A stretch of 64,000 nt of DNA from Ulva prolifera. Its lineage: Eukaryota; Chlorophyta; Ulvophyceae; Ulvales; Ulvaceae. The DNA is taken from positions 4,671,810 through 4,735,809 of the forward strand of contig CM041197.1 of the NCBI GenBank assembly GCA_023078555.1, given 5' to 3'. The notes beneath the pieces were generated by a model, which saw nothing but the letters and a program-made list of their open reading frames with translations, was not told the DNA's origin and searched no databases. Positions 1 through 23,010 of this stretch are shown piece after piece (position 1 is the stretch's first letter; each line of letters begins with the position of its first letter). The position numbers and the translations under genes are program-made.

Positions 1-3000
1 CGTGCCGCGAGGTCCCGCACTGCGCCGTCGACCTCGTAGTGCTGCACGCCGCCGCGGCCAAACGCGGCGCCGAGCGCGGCATGGAGAGCCGCTCGCGCCT
101 CCGCTGCTGCGAGTCCACGCTCCGCTGCCTCTGCCTGCATGCATGCAGCGGCGGCGGTGGCGGACGCCGTTGGAGCGAACGGTCACCGAGTCGGGCGACC
201 TGGGTGGCGGCACGGTCGTCATTTGATGCACCGAGGCCGCAGCGTATGTGCCGTTGTGGGCGTGTGGGGGAAGCCAGAGCAGTTCTGGTGCGAGCTTGTG
301 TATGCGGAGACGGTGTTGCCCAGCCCCGCGGCTATGTGACGCGTCAAGTCCAGGATGCAGACACGGGCGACATCGTGGCGAGATCTGAGGAACGTAACAA
401 TAAACTGCTGGGCACTGACGTACAGCACCGATGCCAGTCCCTGATGACCCATGTTGCTCAGGGATGCCCGAAGGCGTGTGTTTGACCAGACTGAAGCTTC
501 GATCTCCCCGTACAATGTGCTGTGAACGGGTCAGCCGTCGGGTGCCCAGCTGCCGCGCATAGGCACGCATGGCGCAGTTCTCTCTCCAGTTCGGTACGAC
601 TACATGCGTGCGCTTGTGCGCATCTCAAGTGCGCCGCCTGTAATGCGCATTGTCACGCATACAGTGCATGCATGGCACCTCGCACCTCCTCGTTACGCTC
701 CCGCATCTCGCCAGCCGCCTCACGCGCCACTGCATCTTGATCCCGCAACTGCGCCCCCACCACCTCCTGCCGCCGGCTAGCCGCCTCAGCGTGCGCGTGT
801 GCTGCATGTGCTGCGGCAACCGCAGCATCCACCTCCGCACGGAGTCTCTGTACCTCATGCCCCAACTCCACCCCTGATGCGACAGCCCTCCAGCCCCCGT
901 CTGGTGCACCCCCCGTCCGTTGCCCTGATGTACTTTGCACCGCCGATTCTGCCGCGTGAGGAGCGGCAGGTGCACCTTGGGGCCCCCACCTCCATGCATC
1001 GCGCCCATGCACCGGCCGCGTGTCAGCTGCGCGACCCGCCTCTGCCGCAAACGCGAGGTCCGCGGCTCCCCCGTGCCGTGCTGCGTGCTGTGCGTGCTGC
1101 GGGAAGAGGCCCCTCGCGGCCTCGAGCTTGGCGGAGCACAGCACGAGGTCAGTCGCGGCAGCATGCAGGTGACTGATGTCCGAATCCAGGGCCGCCGTGA
1201 GCGCGCCGCGGCGCGCCTGCTGCGCCTGCGCCGCTGCCTCTCGTGCTGCGCGTGCTGTGCGTGCTGTGTCCGTCAGCTGCAGCCATCGCTCGCGGTGGCG
1301 TGCCTCGTGCTCCGATGCCGCCTGCACACAGAGGAAGTGCATGCCGTGTGCTGTGTGCTGTGCATTGCGCTGCGTGCTGTGCCCCGACAACAGTTTCAGG
1401 GTTTTGTACTCTCTGCAATGGGAATGTATGGTGTGAGCTGCTGCAGGCCCAGCCAAGGGTGGAAGACTATGCAGGCACGGGAATATCATGAGATAACAAG
1501 CCACCACACGACCCCATCTGCTGCTGCTGGCGTCAGCAGTGTTGTGCGCAAGGTTGGGCTGCGGCCGGCAGCGCCCACTATTGCGAGTGTGACGTGACTG
1601 GGGTGAGAGTTTGTTGAGACAAAACTCAGAAAGCGTTGAGAGTGTTTTTATTGAGTAGACTGGACGATTCAGCAGCCCAGTCCTGCTGCTGAGGATATCA
1701 GCACACGCAGAGTTGCATTGAAACGTGTACGCGTTTCGATAAGAAACGTTTCAAATGCGTTTCTTATATTAGCGGTTCATATCAACGTATAAAACGCTGG
1801 CACGCCGGGACTGAACGTGTTCAGGAGGGGTCCAAGCAGATGCGCACTGCGCGGCACCCGCCATTGGATCCATGCATATCCGAATCCTGATGCACCCCTA
1901 GGCCTAGCCACAAGGTGTAGCCAGGCTTGTAACCACAGGCGCTGTGAGAAAGCGGTGCAGCACATGCCGTAGCATCGTTGCACAGTGAACACTCGCTGCA
2001 AATATCACTAGATATTGTAATGAGTGTGTCAACCCGTAGACTGCACAAGTCGCTGCTCAGAGCAGTCTGGGAAAAGTGGCTGGGCGCCTCCGGTGCCCAG
2101 ATGGCAATTTCCCCACACAACGTCTCTTATTGTGCACCAAAACTTAAAGAAACGTTTCAAACGCGTTTCTTCTATTAAATTTTCATATCAAAATGTTTCA
2201 ATGCAACTCTGAGCACATGAGACCTGCAACTGCAACTCAAGCACCCGCACCTGATACCAGATCGAAAACACTGTCACCGTCAAATGCTTCCACATATTCC
2301 CGATGGCAACCCCCCCCTACTTGCCTCAGCTACCGGTAGCAACATCGGTACTGCCAGTGGCTAGCGGCGCCACAAACACTTGCCACGTGCATGCTGCGAC
2401 CGGTTCCAGTCCGGCCCCGATGTCCCGCTGTCCGGAAGAACAAACGGGAAGCGATGGCGGATTGGCCACCATCCTGTGTCAGTAGAGTGGTCCGCACCTG
2501 CTGCTCAGTCTCTAAAACCCTCTGCGCCTCGGCAGCAGCCGCCGCCACCTTCTCCGCAGCCCCCACCGCAGCCTCCGTCTCCTCGCAGCGCCCCTCCGCC
2601 ACCCTCACCTCCCGCTCCAGGTGCCCTCTCGTCACACCCGCCGCCTCGCCGTGCAGCACCTGGCCGCAGAGTTCGCAGTGCTGCTCCTCGGCCTCATGGT
2701 GCGAACTGTGCGCAGCTCCCGCGGCAAACGCGGCCTCTTGCTGCCGGGCCGTGGTAAGCTGCGCCTTTGCCGCGGCAGCCTCTCTGCGCGCCGCTGAGAG
2801 TGCTGCTGCGGCAGCTGATGTCGACTGCTGCTGTGCCTGGACGCGGAGGCCTTGCTTCTGCACCTCCTCCTGTACCTCGCTCATTCTCGAGGCCTCTGCA
2901 TGCATGTCCATCAGTGTTTAAATTTTGTACAGTGCACATGCATCAGAAGAGCGGACGGGCGCGGAAGCACACAGAACACAAGCATCTCTGGCGCATTAGC

Positions 3001-6000
3001 TTCCGCTATCTCGTCAAGATGATGCATGCAGTGTGTGCGTGTAGCGGTCAGCGTTGCGCAATCGATGACACGCAATGGAAGAGGGGGCTCCTCGCAGACT
3101 CCACGCCAATGCACATGCTGCATGGGTATGGCGTACTAGTTCTCACTGATTCAGTGCGCAGGAACTGTGGCACATCGGCGGCGATATGCAGTCCTGAGGT
3201 CACGCACGCCCCTGACCCGTCGTGTTTCAGATTGAGGTCCCAAACAACAAGAGTGGCGCCTACATCACATCTAGGTGAGCGACGGCCAGGTGACATGGAA
3301 CTGCTCAGAGAAGGCGAGACTGGAGACCAGGGTGTCACCGCATACCACCCCAAGGACACACCCATATGTGGGCGAACATGCGCAAACGCTGAAACAGAAC
3401 GCTCGCGACAGGTTTCGCACCCTGAGCAGCCTCCCGTTCCGCCGCGTCGGCATCAGGCAGGGGTTCTCCTGGCGGGGAGCCTCCCCCCGCCGCCTCCTCT
3501 GCTGCATCGCTCCACACCCGCTGCCGCTCCTCCTCTGCGGCGTGTAGCCGAACCCGCACCTCCGCCGCGCCTGCGGCAGTGCGCGCTAGCAGCGCCGGCA
3601 GCGGCGCCGCCGCGGCCGCGGCGGCCGCCGCAGCGGCGGCCGCCGCGTCGTCGGTGGCCTGGGCGTGCTGCGCGGCAGCGCGCAGCGCGGCGGCAGCGGC
3701 GTCGGCCTTGGCGGCCGCGCGGTCGGCGGTGCGGCGGCAGTGCTGCACGTCGGACGCTGCGGCGATGCAGTCGGTCTTAGACTCCTTTGCGAGCACTTTT
3801 ACCTCGTCTTCACATGTCTGCATGCGATCACACAGGCCATGGCACAACATGCGTGTAGTGCAGCACCAAACAACCTTCCGTGCCTGACGGCCCTACACGA
3901 TGGCGGCTCAGTGTCGCTGGCAGCACTGTGAACCACCGATGCCTGCCAGACTCACAATCGGTATGACGATATGCTCGGACGATATGCTCGGTGTACAAGA
4001 AAAACCTCAACACATGACCGGCTAGCCTGCAGGGGCTCGGGTGTTGACACACCGAGGTGACAGGGCTGCACACCTTCCACAGCGTGAGGTCGACCACCGG
4101 TGCCAGCGCCTCCTTGAACTTCGAGTCCGCCGCCTCGAGCAGCCCCATCACCGACGCCTGGCTGAGAAACAGCACGCGTGGCAGGTGCGGCGACAGGCGC
4201 CGGTCCACCGCGGCCTGCGTCTCCCGCAGCGTCGCGCCGGTCTCGTCCGTGCCGCCGATCTCAAACGTGAGCGCCCCTGTAGCCACTCTCACACCTCCGT
4301 TTTGCAGACGCCCGCCGCAGTGTAAATTGCACCCGCTGCCCCGCCCCAAACACAGTGCAGATCCGCTTCACTCCTGAAGACAGATCTGTATGTCGGCTGC
4401 GATTGCATTTGGGATCCGGAGCGAACCTTTATGCTTGGTGGCGGTGCGTTCGACTGTAAACTCCTCCCCGCCGACCGCCCCGCGGAGGCGCACGCACGCG
4501 GCCTTGACGGCGGCACTGTGGTTGATGACGTCCGCCCGTGTCAGCCCGAGGCGGCCGCTGTCTCCGAGCCAGCCGGAGAGGTCGCCCGACAGAGCCCAGA
4601 TGGCGGCGCTCGCGACGGCCGTCTTGCCGGATCCATTGGACAGCGAGCCTGCAGCGCATCGAGACGCGGTGCTGTCCGTGGCCGTTTGACCCCTTCCCGA
4701 AAGGCATTGATACAGTGCGAGGGCCAGCGCCGATCGCGACCAGCAGAAACTGGACAGTTTGCGGGAAAATGAATAGAACAGATCGGGTTCAACCGAGCCA
4801 TTATCGGAGCTGGACCCCTCTCTAATTAACAGTCCATAGCCCACAACCGCGTGCACATGGGCACTAGTGTATAGCTGCCCCCGCCGGAACGCACCGTTGT
4901 CCATTTCGTTCCGCCCGGTCAGCGCCACAACCCCGGCGTGGAAGCGGAACGTCACCGGCTCCGCCCCAAAGCAGCGGAAGCCTTGCACGGTGACGTCATG
5001 AAGCTGCACCGGCGCCGCGTGCGCCCCCGCGCGTGCCGCCGCGGCCGCGGCGTCGCCGTCCGCCGCCGCGCGCCGCTGGCATCCCTGCAGGATCGCGGCC
5101 GCGTGCTCTCGGAGCTGCCGCTGGAGGGCCTCCTGTCCTGCAACACACGCTGCGCTGTCGACGCGCTCATGCATGAGCTGCATGCATACATGATGCACAT
5201 GCATGCGGACGTGAGGGTGTGCTTGGATCGACACACACTGGAGCTGCAGCTTGACAGACAGATTGATGGGCTCAACATGTGTTCTGCGTCGGTGGTGGGC
5301 CCGAGGGATCACCCACTCGAAGCTTGAATCGACTGCAGGTATATAGCTATAGCAGCGGGCGCAGTGGCAGCTACGCCTCGAAGCGGTCTGCACCCCAGGC
5401 CCACCGCGGGGCAGGCGGCGGCGGCCGCCCCGCAGCTGCTCAGATGTACACAGCTACCGAGGTGTACACAGGTGACCGTGCTTTGGCATCTGCAGGCGGG
5501 GCAGTGCTTTGGCATCTGCAGGCGGGGCAGTGGGGAGCGTACCGGCAGGTTCGTCTCCAGCCGAGTCGCCCACGCCCGCCGCAGCCTGCCGCTCGCGGTG
5601 ATCCAGGAACGCGTGCAGCGTGTCTGCTGCAGTGTGAGCCACTGCGGCTACAGGCGGATCTGCCTCGTGGCCGTGGCCTTGAGCGAGCTGGTGGGCGTCG
5701 GGTGCATTCGAGGCTGCAGATGGGGCGGGAGTGGCAGGAGAAGGGGGTGGCTGGAGGCGGGCCAGCAGCGGTTGCTCGAGGATGACCGTCACCCGGGCGC
5801 CTGCGGAGGACAAGGTAGATCAAGACAACATAAAATCCTAGTTTTCTATTTTTATATACAAAAAGCGCGTTTTTTTCTCGAATCAAAACGCCCACAAGAC
5901 GCACACACGACGGGGTGGTCCAGAGGCAAGCAGGCAGGGTGGAACGGCGGCCACACAGCAGCGCGGGGAGCATGGGAGGGATGCTGATGCCCGCAGTGTG

Positions 6001-8545
6001 GGAGATGCGTATGTGACCGTCCAGTTGGACATGTTCAGATCTGAGACCTGGCAAAGGGCGTGCCTGGTGAATACTGCCGTAACCCAAGATTAGATTAAGA
6101 ATACGACCGTAACCCGACGTGACACAAGAGATGACGGCGGCGCGCAGTGCACAAACAGGCGCCCCGAGGAGGTGGATATCCAGTCGTCCGTGCTGCTTAA
6201 GCCTGCCAGATCATATTAAGTCTTCCAGTCAATCGCTGAGCAAAACGCCACGCGGCGACAGCACACAGTTCTTGTTGGATGCCAGTGGTGGATGAATGAA
6301 TTGCATTCGTGACAAAAAAATCAAGCAATGTTATGTTTTCAATATGTTTTCCGATAATTCAAGCAACGTCCATGGCCTGTACGTCTGCCAAAAACATGAA
6401 AAGCAAGCAGTGTTCCTGAAAGAGAGCGCAGATCCAAGGCGGACCTGTGGCGACCAGCTGTTCTCGCGCCTCCGCCACGGCGGCCTGCTCTGCGGCCGGC
6501 GCGGTCAGCCGCAGCACACTGCGGGCATTGAAACGGGAGGCGCACTCTGGCAGCCACTCGTGGCGGCCACTCCATGCCAGGGTGTGGTGTTGGGGGCCAC
6601 AGGAGAGAGGGATCGACTGCAGTGGCTGGAAGTTCTCATCTAGGAGGAGGACCCTCTTAGCCTCGCCCTCTTCGCCAAAGTTGACTGCAGCAGCAGCAGC
6701 TCACATCAACCGCGAATGGTTTGATTATGATTTCATTGTGCAGGCAGTGTGTGCATAGAGAGAGGCCCTGTGAGTTTCGTACAGTCGTCTGAGGGGGTTT
6801 CCAGGTGGTTTACCCCTTCGGCATATGTGGTCCCGTTACTTCGAGTCTGTCAATGTCCTTTTCAGGATATGGCTCAGTGCATCCAGATACACTTTGCTAT
6901 ACATATGGCCTGCCAGGAGGTACGCAGGCGAGTGCTTTGGTGCTACTGTCACCCACAACATCACCTGGCTACATCTGGAACATTTCATTGCAGCTGGCTA
7001 CTGTTATTACACAATGGCATTGCCGGACGTTGTGGATCAGAGTTCATGCCAAACGTGTGTGATTGTGACTGGGCCTTGACTCTTGGTGAAAGCCAAGACC
7101 ACTAACAAGTCGTGTGTCGTTTTCAAACAACCAGTCAATGTGCGGACTGGCCGGGGTCAGGCTGCAGTCCACGTTTTATGATTCCGTGTATCTTGACCTG
7201 CCAAGCTCCTGCACCTGACATGGATAGCTGATGCTAGCTAGCTGACATGACCAAAAAAAAAAAAGCGGATGCCATGAGATGTATCAGCTGTGGCTCAGCC
7301 TGTTGCAGCGAAGGGCATGGCGTACGCACGCTGGAAGGGGGACCCGATGTAGGTGATGTTGGTGTTGGGTACTGTGTGCGGCAGATGGTAGTGGCCGCTG
7401 TATGTTGGGATGTCAACAGGGAACTCCTCCTTCCCGACACCAACGTGGGCTTGCTGGCGGGTGTTGAATCGCGCTCCAGCGACATCCGCATGCACAAAAA
7501 AGGCCAGCGGGGCTTCCGGGAGCGCCCTAGCGGCCGCTAGCAGCTGCTGCAGCTCCTTTCGATCAGCCCTGCAACAGCACAGCCGAGATGAAGCTGAGGT
7601 TGTGCTCTGGTGTGATGTTGAGGTGCCCATGTTGTATGTAGATGCTGATGTTGAGCAGATTGCACCAGCAGCAGTGCCATGGTCACGCGAACTTCACCCC
7701 ATGTCTGTGGCTACAGAGCATATGCTATGTTCAGTCAATATGTGAATGCTGCACGTTTCGGTTTTTGGTGGCGAGCTGCATCTCGGGCAGATGCAGGTTC
7801 AAGATGTCACACGAAATGCTGTAGAGCCCACCTGTACGGGATCCATGCAGCATTGTTGAGCAGCGTAGGAGTAGAGAAAACTCTCCACATAGGGCAGATC
7901 CGTTCAAGGATGCCCATGTTGTGCTCAACCCCCGAGAGGGAAGCCTGATCATGGTTGCCAGTGATACTGATTGTGGGATGTCTCCACTCTCGCAAGTCGC
8001 CTTCCACCTGACGAAGCAGGCGATGAGGCACGTTTTCTCTCGCGTCCCAGAAGTCTCCCTGAAGGTGGCTGTTGCAAATCACCACTGTTTCGGGCTGAGC
8101 GGCGCCTGTACCTCTTCAGGCAGTCTTGATCGTGAACAGCTCGATACCAACGAAACAGGCCATAAATCGTGACCACTACAGCCTAAAATACATAAATATG
8201 TGATCTGCGTACCAGGAATATACATCCTGCGTTGTGCGCAGAGGCAATTTTGCTCACGGAGTTCAAGCTGGAGCGCCAGTGCGGATGGAATCGCTGGTGC
8301 ACATGCAAATCCGAGAACACAATCCACCGCTTGACTGACGAGAACAATTCAGATGAGTCTGGCGAGGCTTCAACAAAAAGTGCTTTGGCATCAGGAGCGT
8401 CGGACGTCTGGGTCGCGCATGTCGTGCTGGCGCGGACACGCCTGCTCCGGTGCGTGTGCCCGTGCTTCAGACGAAATGAAGAGCCCAACATACGCGCAGA
8501 GGACGAAATTGGGTCAGCCACAGATGAATGATACGCGATGTGCAT
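1..8545 (-). CDS. Fused SbcD/Mre11-like phosphoesterase and SbcC/Rad50-like ATPase (3' end off window)
   Basis: Predicted DNA end-processing nuclease and ATPase in one chain. Twelve phase-consistent exons: 8545 (or 8491)-8213, 8058-7832, 7568-7330, 6684-6445, 5800-5543, 5137-4895, 4648-4427, 4276-4074, 3817-3421, 2895-2498, 1321-686, and 134 off the left edge; about 1,158 residues from the ATG at 8491. Phosphoesterase motifs in order: FSDLHVH, GDFWD, GNHD, FFVHAD, SGHYHLPH, then GSPFQ. The ATPase part begins near residue 414 with GFRCFG, and its Walker A is GRNEMDNGSLSNGSGKTA near residue 495. A Q-loop-like FLSQASVMGLLEA follows. Long Ala/Glu/Arg coiled coils flank CELCG near residue 843, the expected zinc-hook position. 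The last visible exon reads LGAAFGRGGVQHYEV, entering the C-terminal ATPase half, which lies outside the window. The N-terminus is Arg/Ser-rich and could be an organelle presequence. Separate neighbouring genes are disfavoured because splice phases match through every junction. Confidence 0.82.
5478..5529. repeat. 26-bp tandem repeat, two copies
   Basis: Two perfect 26-base units, each starting GTGCTTTGGCATC, at 5478-5503 and 5504-5529. They lie in the intron between the fifth and sixth exons of the SbcCD-like gene. Confidence 0.9.
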
Positions 8546-9092
8546 AAGATTACGCTGAAAATCTGCGCGCATAGCGCTGCAAGCAGCACTGACGCACCAA
8601 TGCCCGCGATTCAGTGGTCGAACCGATGCACAAATGGGCAACGCACTCGCGCTACTAGTGCAATGTAATGTTGCTGTCTTGACTTGCGCTGGGTACCAGG
8701 TAAAGTCTCGTTCGGCGCACGCGCGAGCACAGTCATACCAGCTCAGCCTGTCCATGGCCCCAAAGGCCACCCGAGCTACTTGCAGACACGCAATCGACAC
8801 AGCGGCAGCCGTGTTGCCAGCGATATTCGGGCCTGGGCCGCTATCGATGCATGTGATGCCTGCGAATGACTGCGCCAGTGAGCGACCTGTTCGTGCTCTG
8901 GTGCTACATCGGGATCACATCTGAGGAATCAACTGGAGCTGGACAAGCGTGCAGACAGCGCCTTTCGTAAATCATGCTACAGTATATTTGTAAACACTTA
9001 GGATCTAGCTGTAGCAGCACCTGACTAACGCCTTACAGGCGGGATCGTAGCATGAAATAAGTTGGGAGCAGACCGCGTAGCCAGTGGAAGTC

Positions 9093-20200: not shown

Positions 20201-23010
20201 CCCTGGTAAGCTTCACCCACATCCCAGCCGCCGCCACTGCTTGGATCAGCTATTAAGCCACTCTCCTGAACAGCGCATATACATGTGTGTTGCGTGCGAC
20301 CTCCAGCTGGGCGACGCGGCGGCGGCGTGTGCAGGTGCGCGTGAACAGTGGCATCGTGCTGCTGCTGCTGATTGCGATCACGCTGACATGGTACATCGGC
20401 TCAAACACCTGCGTCAACTGCGCGGTCACCTGGTACGGCAACCCCTGCGTCTCCTTCACCGTCGTCTGCCTCCAGGTATGCCCCCCCCCAATATGCCGCA
20501 TGCATGTACAGCCCCGCACTCACTAACAACCGACGCACCGGCCTGTCTGCCCCTGTCACCACCACAGCGACCGCAAAGTTTGAGCAAACAACAAATGTTG
20601 CATTGGTGCCTGGTGGGACTCATCGTGCCGCTGGGCGTGTTCTACGGTGCCCCCGTCTCCGCCGTGTCACACGCGCGTTTCCAGTGGATTGCACATGCAT
20701 GCCACGCATGCATGCAGATGGTGTCCTTCAACTTGACCTGGCCGCGCTCCCGCACCTTCCTCGCGGCGGAGCGCACCCTGCCCCTGGGGCTGCTGCAGCA
20801 GTTCGCATGGACCGAGGCCGACATGCCGCGGCGGCGCGCGTCCCGCCGCGCAGCCGCCGCCCCCGACAGCGCAGCGCACGCCGCTCTCCGCTCCGAGCCC
20901 ATCTTCTGCTTTGAGACGGCGATCAAGCTGTTCTTCTGGAGCGTGCTGGTGTACGCGTACGCGGAGGGGGGGGGTGGGGAGGCCGCGGTGAGCCTCGCGG
21001 CGATGCCGGCGCCGATCCGGGAGCTGCTTGGCGAGATGGACGCGGCAATGCTGCTGCTGGGGCTGCGCAAGCGGCGGCTGTTCTACGACCGCGTACACGG
21101 CACCAAGGTGCTGCTGGCGTGGAGCGACACCGTCATCCTGCTGTCCTTCCGCGGCACCGCGGAGCGTGCCAATCTCATCCAGGACGCCAACGTGCGCCCC
21201 CCTTCATGGCCTCGCCGGAGCGCGTGCTGCCCTGCATTCAACGAGTGCCTCTGCATGCCACACCTGCAGGTGCATACGTTTTGGATTCAGCAGGTGTTGG
21301 TTCGATGGCAGTGCGCGTACTTTCATGAGATCACTCAAACCACCCATGACCACACACACACACACACACACAACTTCAACGCCGACGAGCGAACCGCGGT
21401 ACCGCACAGATCGATGTTTGACGTGGGCTGGCATCTGCTGTCATGCATGCACTGGTGGCGTTGGCAACGAACAAGCACGCCAACAAGCACGCCCGTTGCC
21501 CTGGCGGTGCTACCGGCCTCTCAGGATTTGTCCATGTAACACAGCAAGAGGAAACACATCAAACACATCCCCACGCAGATGAAGTGCAGTTTCTTCTGAC
21601 GGCGCACCCGCCACAGCGCACATTCAAGGGCCGCGCGCCGCGTGTCCACCAGGGCTTCCTCGCCACCTGGCATGCGCACGGCGTGCACGACGCGGTGCTG
21701 GGCCTCGTTCGCGACCTCCTCGCCGCGGCGCCTCACCCTGACGGCGTCAGGGTTCTATGCACGGGCCACTCCCTCGGCGGCGCGGTCGCGCAGCTCGCCT
21801 CATTCGACATCGTGCGCAATCTCGGGGTGAGCCCTGACCGCATCTCGTGCTACACGTTTGGATGCCCGAGGCTCGGCAATCATGCGCTGGCGGAGGAATT
21901 CGAAGAGGTGGTGCCGGACACGTGGCACATCATCAATGACCAGGATGTCGTCACCCGTGGCATGAAGGTGAGAAAAGCCCCTGCAGCCGTTCCTGTGTCA
22001 GTCTATCCGTTGCACGGTTGCAAACCACAACAGCCGCGGTCCCGCCCGTGCCCTGTCGTGTACCGCCGCGGTGTGCATGCAGCTCATGGGTGTGTACAAG
22101 CGCGCCGGGCACCGCGTGATCATCAACACCAGCGGCCACCTCATCGTGCGCCCCGGCCACTTCGAGCTCTCGATGCTGCAACACTTCATGCATGGCGGCG
22201 ACCCGGCGGACCACAAGACCGTCGCATACCAGCGCGCGCTGTTCGCCGTCGTCACCGCGCAGCTGCGGGACTCCTCCCGCCACGATGACGGCCTGCACGG
22301 CCTGCTCGGCCTGCTCAAGCAGGTGCCGCAGGTGCGCCGACGTCCCTCTTGCGGCCCGGCGGGGGGCCCTGCCTCGGAACCCGTGCCGCCACTGCATGCA
22401 GTCGACCGTCTGCTGCAGTACCTGAGCGTATTGCACCAGGCCGATTGTGCCCTTGGCTCATGCATGCATTGCACACGCAGCACAGTACATCTTCCACGTT
22501 TTGGGCTCCATGCACACAGCCCGGGTGCAACTCATATCGTCCCCCTTTGGAATTTGTCGACCGCGTTTATACCAATTTATCGTATTTTTACTTTACGGCA
22601 GGTCGTCACACTCACGTGCGGGGGTGTGGCTACAGGTGCGCACTGCGCTCGAAGAGCATGCACGTCGCGACGGCACCTCCTTCGCCAACATCGTGCGCAG
22701 CCTCGCCTCCAACGTGCGGCACGCCACCACAGCGGCGCAGCCCGCAGCGTCGACGGCCGGCGCCGCCGCGATCGGAGGCGCCGCGTTCTCCAGTCAGCGC
22801 TTCACCCCGTCGCGCCACGCGAGCCTGTTGCGTGCTGCGGGCGCGGAGCGCGGCTGGTCCGCCACGGCCGCGTCAGGCGGCCTGCCTTCGCCGCCATGCT
22901 CCCCGGCATCCACAGTGGTGTCGGTGGCGACTGAGTCGGCTCTCGTTGTGATTGACGAGGATGCTGACGGCGGGTTGACGGCATCTGCGCCGCACACAGC
23001 GCATGCATGA
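17400..23010 (+). CDS. Multi-pass membrane class 3 lipase, DAG-lipase-like, copy 2
   Basis: Paralogue of the lipase ending at 14777 and apparently intact. Exons: 17400-17630, 17711-17962, 18253-18535, 19085-19347, 20335-20475, 20568-21191 (open throughout; a small intron ending at 20717 is possible), 21590-21967, 22083-22331, 22636-23010; about 931 residues. Exon 2 (252), exon 4 (263), exon 5 (141) and exon 8 (378) have exactly the lengths seen in copy 1. Hydrophobic segments such as LILVVESHGMNL and VNSGIVLLLLIAITLTWYIG precede the lipase domain: ILLSFRGTAE, GHSLGG (Ser near 659), TFGCPRLGN, NDQDVV and DHKTVAYQ. The exon 3 donor appears to be GC rather than GT. The last intron is absent from copy 1. 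Intron 4 holds a hAT-type element and intron 3 a dispersed repeat. The C-terminal 120 residues are low-complexity and not conserved with copy 1. Confidence 0.83.
18860..19069 (+). repeat. Dispersed 205-bp repeat, copy 1
   Basis: Lies in intron 3 of lipase copy 2. It contains TTTGCGCCGGTTGAGTGTGG and TGCCGGTAGGGCCATGG and ends near CTCTGTTTGTAACTAC. Diverged copies lie at 30940-31157 and 46437-46622, in the same orientation. No coding capacity is seen. Confidence 0.8.
19445..20111. mobile_element. Non-autonomous hAT-type element inside a lipase intron
   Basis: A 667-bp element with terminal inverted repeats. The left end reads TAGGGATGGCACAGAG and the right end, reverse-complemented, reads TAGGGATGGCACAAAG. 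It is flanked by the perfect 8-bp duplication CACAGCAC at 19437-19444 and 20112-20119. Eight-bp duplications and this end type are typical of hAT transposons. The interior carries many CCGAGGT/ACCTCGG motifs in both orientations and no transposase frame, so it is a MITE-like, non-autonomous copy. It sits entirely within intron 4 of lipase copy 2. Confidence 0.88.
20164..20198. repeat. Poly-C tract, 35 bases
   Basis: An uninterrupted run of C just downstream of the hAT-type element, still within intron 4 of lipase copy 2. Confidence 0.95.
22332..22635 (+). other. Copy-specific intron flanked by a 9-bp direct repeat
   Basis: This 304-base intron interrupts lipase copy 2 between CCGCAG and GTGCGCACT. 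The homologous codons of copy 1, around 14263, are continuous. CAGGTGCGC occurs at the donor (22329-22337) and again at the acceptor (22633-22641), so the intron looks inserted with a target duplication that supplies both splice sites. Confidence 0.75.

Follow-up and report, generated by a model that had tools for sequence, protein, structure and literature searches.

A probable single-chain SbcDC-type nuclease and ATPase encoded in the nuclear genome of Ulva prolifera

The DNA-cutting enzyme and the ATP-driven partner of DNA end-processing complexes are usually two proteins. SbcCD and Mre11-Rad50 are dimers with two nuclease sites at the base of the ATPase heads; the heads close on DNA when ATP is bound, the nuclease is opened by hydrolysis, and the coils are joined by zinc hooks. 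Here we describe a gene of the green alga Ulva prolifera that appears to join the two partners. It overlaps the beginning of a stretch of 64,000 nucleotides analysed as a whole (the window, C2:4671810-4735809). Most probably it is a spliced nuclear gene, present as a single copy, and its product a single-chain SbcDC enzyme of a non-canonical, phage-like type that the host has besides its own MRE11 and RAD50. The gene model was built from the window and the adjoining contig sequence, and the genome searches covered 88.9 Mb in 44 contigs.

Thirteen Mre11/Rad50 fusions were reported by Yoshida, Claverie and Ogata in 2011 (PMC3175470). The carriers are Mimivirus (R555), a moss, a diatom, two Micromonas, two slime moulds, five bacteria and a phage, and the proteins of Physcomitrella, Phaeodactylum and Micromonas form a moss-diatom-prasinophyte group supported at 91%. 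The cellular carriers also possess separate canonical genes, with the exception of Deferribacter. The fusions were placed outside the canonical clades and a viral source was proposed for them; linking the Mre11 portion, at its end, to the beginning of the Rad50 portion was found compatible with the T. maritima structure. As fusions beside canonical MRE11 and RAD50 were thus already described in 2011, the Ulva gene is a further member of a known fusion family. The original prediction had proposed one fused polypeptide, which the spliced model upholds, and had taken the fusion itself to suggest a distinct DNA end-processing system, which is not supported in view of the published fusions.

By their description, the 2011 fusions, above all the moss-diatom-prasinophyte group, share with the Ulva protein an N-terminal nuclease outside the canonical clades, a C-terminal ATPase with a coiled coil, the presence of separate canonical genes and, in part, a photosynthetic eukaryotic carrier. 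A long Ala/Pro-rich linker, 13 introns and a glutamine in the H-loop are described only for the Ulva fusion.

The spliced gene and its two halves

The fusion gene lies on the minus strand and is modelled as 14 exons forming a single open frame of 1333 residues and a stop, running from window position 8572 to 842 bases past the first base of the window (Table 1). The exon ends predicted at 6445, 5800 and 5137 are those of the model. The gene had been assigned to positions 1..8545, which proved too narrow: exon 1 begins at 8572 or upstream, and the end of exon 12 with exons 13 and 14 occupies -1 to -842. All 13 introns are GT-AG and 150-1176 bases long, and no inner stop occurs across any junction. 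The GC content at codon positions 1, 2 and 3 of the coding sequence is 0.767, 0.534 and 0.755, compared to 0.551 in the introns. The exon borders were picked by eye, guided by phage motifs, and the rebuilt junctions give back conserved motifs (GCIFL/GDFWDAR, GSPFQ-L-NFGEEGE and DN-G-SLSNGSGKT). Because the borders were chosen so that motifs join, the fit at the borders is partly by construction, but the stop-free agreement in phase is not. The possibility that the finding is an artefact was rejected, since motifs, splice sites and the codon GC pattern agree. The start codon is uncertain, as the exon 1 frame stays open upstream to 8914; the first 50 residues of the model contain eight Arg, one Lys, two Asp, no Glu and nine Ser. 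The donors of the gene are mostly GTGCG or GTRCGY-like rather than GTRAGT, and its acceptors mostly end in TGCAG.

The phosphoesterase domain corresponds to residues ~80-300, and the complete motif set claimed for it (DLH, GDFWDAR, GNHD, FVHADV and GHYH) was found on the minus strand in exons 1-3. Two lobes of an SMC-type ATPase follow at residues ~485-690 and 1165-1333, with a coiled coil between them whose arms are roughly ~180 and ~300 residues long. The claimed SMC/Rad50-type ATPase with a CELC hook was likewise recovered, with the Walker A motif SNGSGKT in exons 6-7 and CELC in exon 10. On the spliced product, Pfam SMC_N (4e-12) and AAA_23 (1.8e-10) both scored above the cut-off.

Table 1. 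Exons of the modelled fusion gene and the intron between its halves (window positions; negative values count bases before the window's first base)
Feature	Position	Strand	Basis
Exon 1: motif I, FSDLH, behind a basic N-terminal extension rich in Ser and Arg that may be a targeting peptide; start uncertain	8213..8572	-	model, composition
Exon 2: GDFWDAR and GNHD motifs	7832..8058	-	model; columns invariant in phage/viral alignments
Exon 3: FVHADV and SGHYH motifs, YIGSPFQ	7330..7568	-	model; phage/viral alignments
Exon 4: end of phosphoesterase domain, start of capping region	6445..6684	-	model, alignments
Exon 5: capping region and first part of linker	5543..5800	-	model; weak alignment
Intron between nuclease and ATPase halves, 405 bases	5138..5542	-	GTACGC...TTGCAG, phase 1
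Exon 6: rest of linker and first ATPase strands (start of Walker A region, TGRNEMDN)	4895..5137	-	model, alignment
Exon 7: Walker A, SNGSGKT	4427..4648	-	model; Pfam AAA_23 on single frame 2.1e-8
Exon 8: end of N-lobe with Q-loop region (FLSQ)	4074..4276	-	model, alignment
Exon 9: ascending coiled coil, Ala-rich	3421..3817	-	model
Exon 10: coiled coil and zinc hook CELC (residues 870-873)	2498..2895	-	model, alignment
Exon 11: descending coiled coil	686..1321	-	model
Exon 12	1..134 in window, runs on to -60	-	model
Exon 13	-278 to -343, outside window	-	model
Exon 14: signature SLSTGE, Walker B TLVLDE, D-loop NLD, stop	-525 to -842, outside window	-	model

Relatives of the fusion and canonical genes of the host

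The nuclease half shares 22-27% identity with four aligned phage SbcD proteins, in which the motif residues are kept, and 18-26% with a wider set of 11 viral or phage proteins. DLH, GDFWD, GNHD, H145 and GHYH are common to the fusion and both sets, and the metal-binding and catalytic residues are retained. In a tree of 31 SbcD sequences, the eight canonical bacterial proteins form a clade (bootstrap 99) joined by host MRE11 (98). The fusion falls outside, in a group of viral sequences from which the canonical clade is excluded (90), with no stable nearest neighbour (39-79). These comparisons indicate that the nuclease half is akin to phage-type SbcD, outside the canonical clade of bacterial SbcD and host MRE11. 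The suggestion that the motifs look closer to SbcCD than to nuclear Mre11/Rad50 is therefore half right: the nuclease half lies outside the clade of host MRE11, yet it also lies outside canonical SbcD, with the phage type.

The ATPase half is 15-22% identical to phage SbcC, with the Walker A, signature and Walker B motifs and the hook cysteines kept; both cysteines of CELC are invariant in the phage SbcC alignment. The fusion also fits a Walker A insert pattern (G-N, at most 18 residues, then SNG-GK): TGRNEMDNGSLSNGSGKT. This pattern occurs in 29 of the 39 SbcC frames of the scanned phage, viral and bacterial loci, a share that is biased, since the queries themselves carried the insert and near-identical phages are among the sequences. 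The insert is absent from T4, from all eight canonical bacterial SbcC compared (E. coli and seven others) and from host RAD50, whose Walker A reads VGQNGAGKT. The gp47/gp46-like exonucleases of Herelleviridae (such as Bacillus phages Bobb and 015DV002) have the nuclease motifs, the insert as G-N-x7-SNGSGK and a CxxC hook in common with the fusion, at 21-27% identity. They differ in being two genes in the scanned loci and in a much shorter coiled coil, the whole proteins having 631-641 residues. Canonical SbcCD of E. coli has the same motifs, the same type of zinc hook and, if translated in operon order, the same order of domains. In contrast, its subunits are separate, the insert is lacking in the canonical set, and the fusion scores far below the NCBIfam cut-offs for sbcd and sbcc.

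The first 681 residues of the fusion gave no tblastn match at 1e-3 in plasmids. Among phages, 35 records were matched, of which the annotated ones are recombination exonucleases or similar. In viral contigs, at least 264 loci were confirmed for the SbcD half, of which 80 were kept, and 22 for the SbcC half; none of three stretches was confirmed in a single-protein scan of viral contigs. In GTDB genomes, three of 50 stretches were confirmed for the SbcD half, none of them fused, and none of 125 for the SbcC half. The nearest relatives found are viral, at 22-30% identity; a PDB search gave one weak match, SbcD 7dog (E 0.084). A total of 112 loci were scanned for fused frames (106 phage or viral contigs, two overlapping T4 loci included, counted as 108, with three from GTDB and one from E. 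coli). SbcD was present in 111 and SbcC in 39, and in none of these loci, to which the result applies, did the two share one frame. In two IMG/VR contigs that are isolate-type entries (L119 and L134), the SbcD and SbcC frames touch or adjoin and the Walker A insert is present. A further contig (L111), from a Paludibacteraceae metagenome-assembled genome of yak cecum, has an SbcD-like frame (4986-6026) that is open but for one TAG (5643-5645); it may come from a gut phage in which TAG codes for an amino acid.

The viral affinities bear on the alternative that the gene is a decayed or unexpressed insertion from a large virus, its spliced frame being partly a product of model building by eye. The viral nature of the nearest relatives found, the Ala-rich, low-complexity sequence of exons 9-11 and the viral source favoured for such fusions by the 2011 authors (PMC3175470) agree with such an origin. 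However, all motifs are intact over 1333 residues without an inner stop, 13 spliceosomal introns are unexpected in a recent viral insertion, the GC pattern by codon position is that of a coding gene, and the fused frame is missing from all the viral, phage and bacterial loci scanned. We consider this explanation very unlikely.

No second copy of the fusion was found in the genome: a six-frame search with 492 of its residues gave eight matches, all within the fusion gene, and the single genome match of SbcC_Walker_B is the same gene. We regard the fusion gene as real, well conserved and single-copy. The original prediction had also called for a search for separate MRE11 and RAD50 elsewhere in the genome, and both were found. 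Mre11_DNA_bind has its sole genome match (1.2e-21) on contig C6, with DNHL, GGDLFHDNKPS, GNHDDPSG and GHEHE nearby. On contig C5, five TIGR00606 matches (best 1.8e-28) lie within 11.4 kb, with VGQNGAGKTT and LDEPTTNLD. These matches indicate that canonical MRE11 and RAD50 are encoded by separate host genes, on contigs other than that of the fusion, and the possibility that the genome lacks either of them was rejected. The host proteins belong to the same superfamilies as the two halves and share their general mechanism. They differ in being encoded by separate genes, in the RAD50 Walker A sequence and in the presence of Mre11_DNA_bind (PF04152) in MRE11, this domain not being among the three Pfam families matched by the spliced fusion.

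Elsewhere in the genome, 38 matches to chlorophyll a/b-binding proteins were found. One of them hits 628 PDB sequences, with chlorophyll a/b proteins of photosystem I and LHCII as the best of those listed; many of these entries are of green-algal and plant origin. On these proteins the host was assigned to the green lineage, though its plastid could also be a secondary green one. In the window itself, a plus-strand frame at 21422-22285 contains Lipase_3 (PF01764, 2e-25) and belongs to an ordinary neighbouring gene, and nine further frames checked alongside it matched no Pfam family.

Evidence for and against one chain

Several results weigh against this reading of the gene. The case for linking the halves depends on a single intron whose splice sites are compatible. 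A hidden Markov model of 102 viral and other SbcD tails scores the fusion at -5.8 bits, compared to best values of -2.0 and below for 200 shuffles. In a MAFFT alignment the last SbcD helices straddle the junction of exons 5 and 6; as the tail model does no better than with shuffles, this helix pair is a feature of that alignment only. Pfam Metallophos reports no nuclease half, either in the spliced product or among 17 six-frame matches in the genome. NCBIfam sbcd (TIGR00619) reaches 1.1e-4 and 22.1 bits (cut-off 77.65), and sbcc (TIGR00618) 27.9 bits (cut-off 478.5). SbcC_Walker_B is also below its cut-off, on the spliced product (21 vs 27 bits) and on the genome frames (C2:4671093-4671260, 7e-4). 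The identity of the nuclease half rests mainly on the phage alignments. The H-loop carries Gln in the fusion (VVVVGQ, exon 14) and His in all seven other aligned rows shown, so ATP hydrolysis could be altered.

The trees of the ATPase half, built from 29 sequences, also count against this assignment. The N-lobe puts the fusion by a viral sequence (L062) at 53, the C-lobe by canonical bacteria at 62, and the joint tree of both lobes beside host RAD50 at 70, which leaves the ATPase half without a firm position. For the trees, the pieces of host MRE11 and RAD50 were assembled by eye from open reading frames. A profile search of the product and a phylogeny of both halves had been proposed as checks: SMC_N and AAA_23 exceeded their cut-offs, sbcd and sbcc stayed below theirs and Metallophos did not report the protein, and the nuclease half grouped with phage-type SbcD, while the ATPase half found no stable position. 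The joint tree speaks for a nuclear paralogue of MRE11 and RAD50 fused within this lineage. We find that origin scarcely credible: the fusion and host RAD50 are both on very long branches in the joint tree, RAD50 joins canonical bacteria at 74 in the N-lobe tree with the fusion elsewhere, the SbcD tree parts the fusion from host MRE11, and host RAD50 is without the Walker A insert.

The junction itself is formed by exon 5, the 405-base intron and exon 6, the intron having a consensus donor and acceptor and being in phase. If unspliced, the frame of exon 5 would run on to a stop near 5454, while that of exon 6 extends upstream without a stop and contains in-frame ATGs, MHVHHVCMQLMHERVD. For this reason two adjacent genes, or a dicistronic mRNA, have to be considered, with SbcD ending near 5454 and SbcC starting at its own ATG to give an ordinary two-subunit complex. 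In E. coli (minus strand) and in phages the operon likewise has SbcD ahead of SbcC, and polycistronic nuclear mRNAs have been reported in green algae. On the other hand, the good donor and acceptor are compatible in phase, the 405-base stretch is within the range of the gene's other introns, and fusions in green algae and moss are already published (PMC3175470). On balance, we regard two genes as unlikely. The coding strand contains neither TGTAA nor AATAAA within the 405-base intron, and TGTAA is absent from it between 7011 and -1400, although TGTAA is not established as the poly(A) signal of this genome. The rate of TGTAA in the window is 0.55 per kb, and its occurrence downstream of light-harvesting genes is mixed. 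The lack of TGTAA between the halves therefore says little. The gene model is best read as encoding both halves in a single polypeptide, and the gene would presumably be transcribed as one mRNA.

Proposed mechanism and possible role

Two fusion chains would most likely pair through their phosphoesterase domains, their ATP-bound heads and their CELC zinc hooks. On binding ATP the heads would close around a hairpin or DNA end, which the metal-dependent nuclease could cut once the ATP is hydrolysed. The fusion would set a 1:1 ratio and connect the Mre11 part, at its end, with the beginning of the Rad50 part.

Since the N-terminus is basic and Ser/Arg-rich and the host already has a nuclear MRE11-RAD50, a role in an organelle is plausible, and the enzyme may work on plastid or mitochondrial DNA instead of in the nucleus. 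A bolder possibility, less likely than not, is that the green lineage took up a single-chain SbcDC of phage type, which later acquired introns and a targeting peptide and became the organelle's own nuclease for hairpins and ends, with an ATPase switch modified by the H-loop Gln and in parallel to nuclear MRE11-RAD50. Listings of later literature on such fusions in plastids, algae or moss, from a collection short of most subscription journals, and passages of PMC12906663 showed no functional study of a eukaryotic fusion.

With the Ulva gene, a family of sporadic distribution gains a carrier that is rich in introns and probably of the green lineage, and such a fusion is again seen to coexist with canonical MRE11 and RAD50. 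If the enzyme does work in plastids or mitochondria, it would help to study the processing of palindromes and broken ends in the organelle DNA of algae, as well as the route by which repair enzymes of phage type came into eukaryotes.

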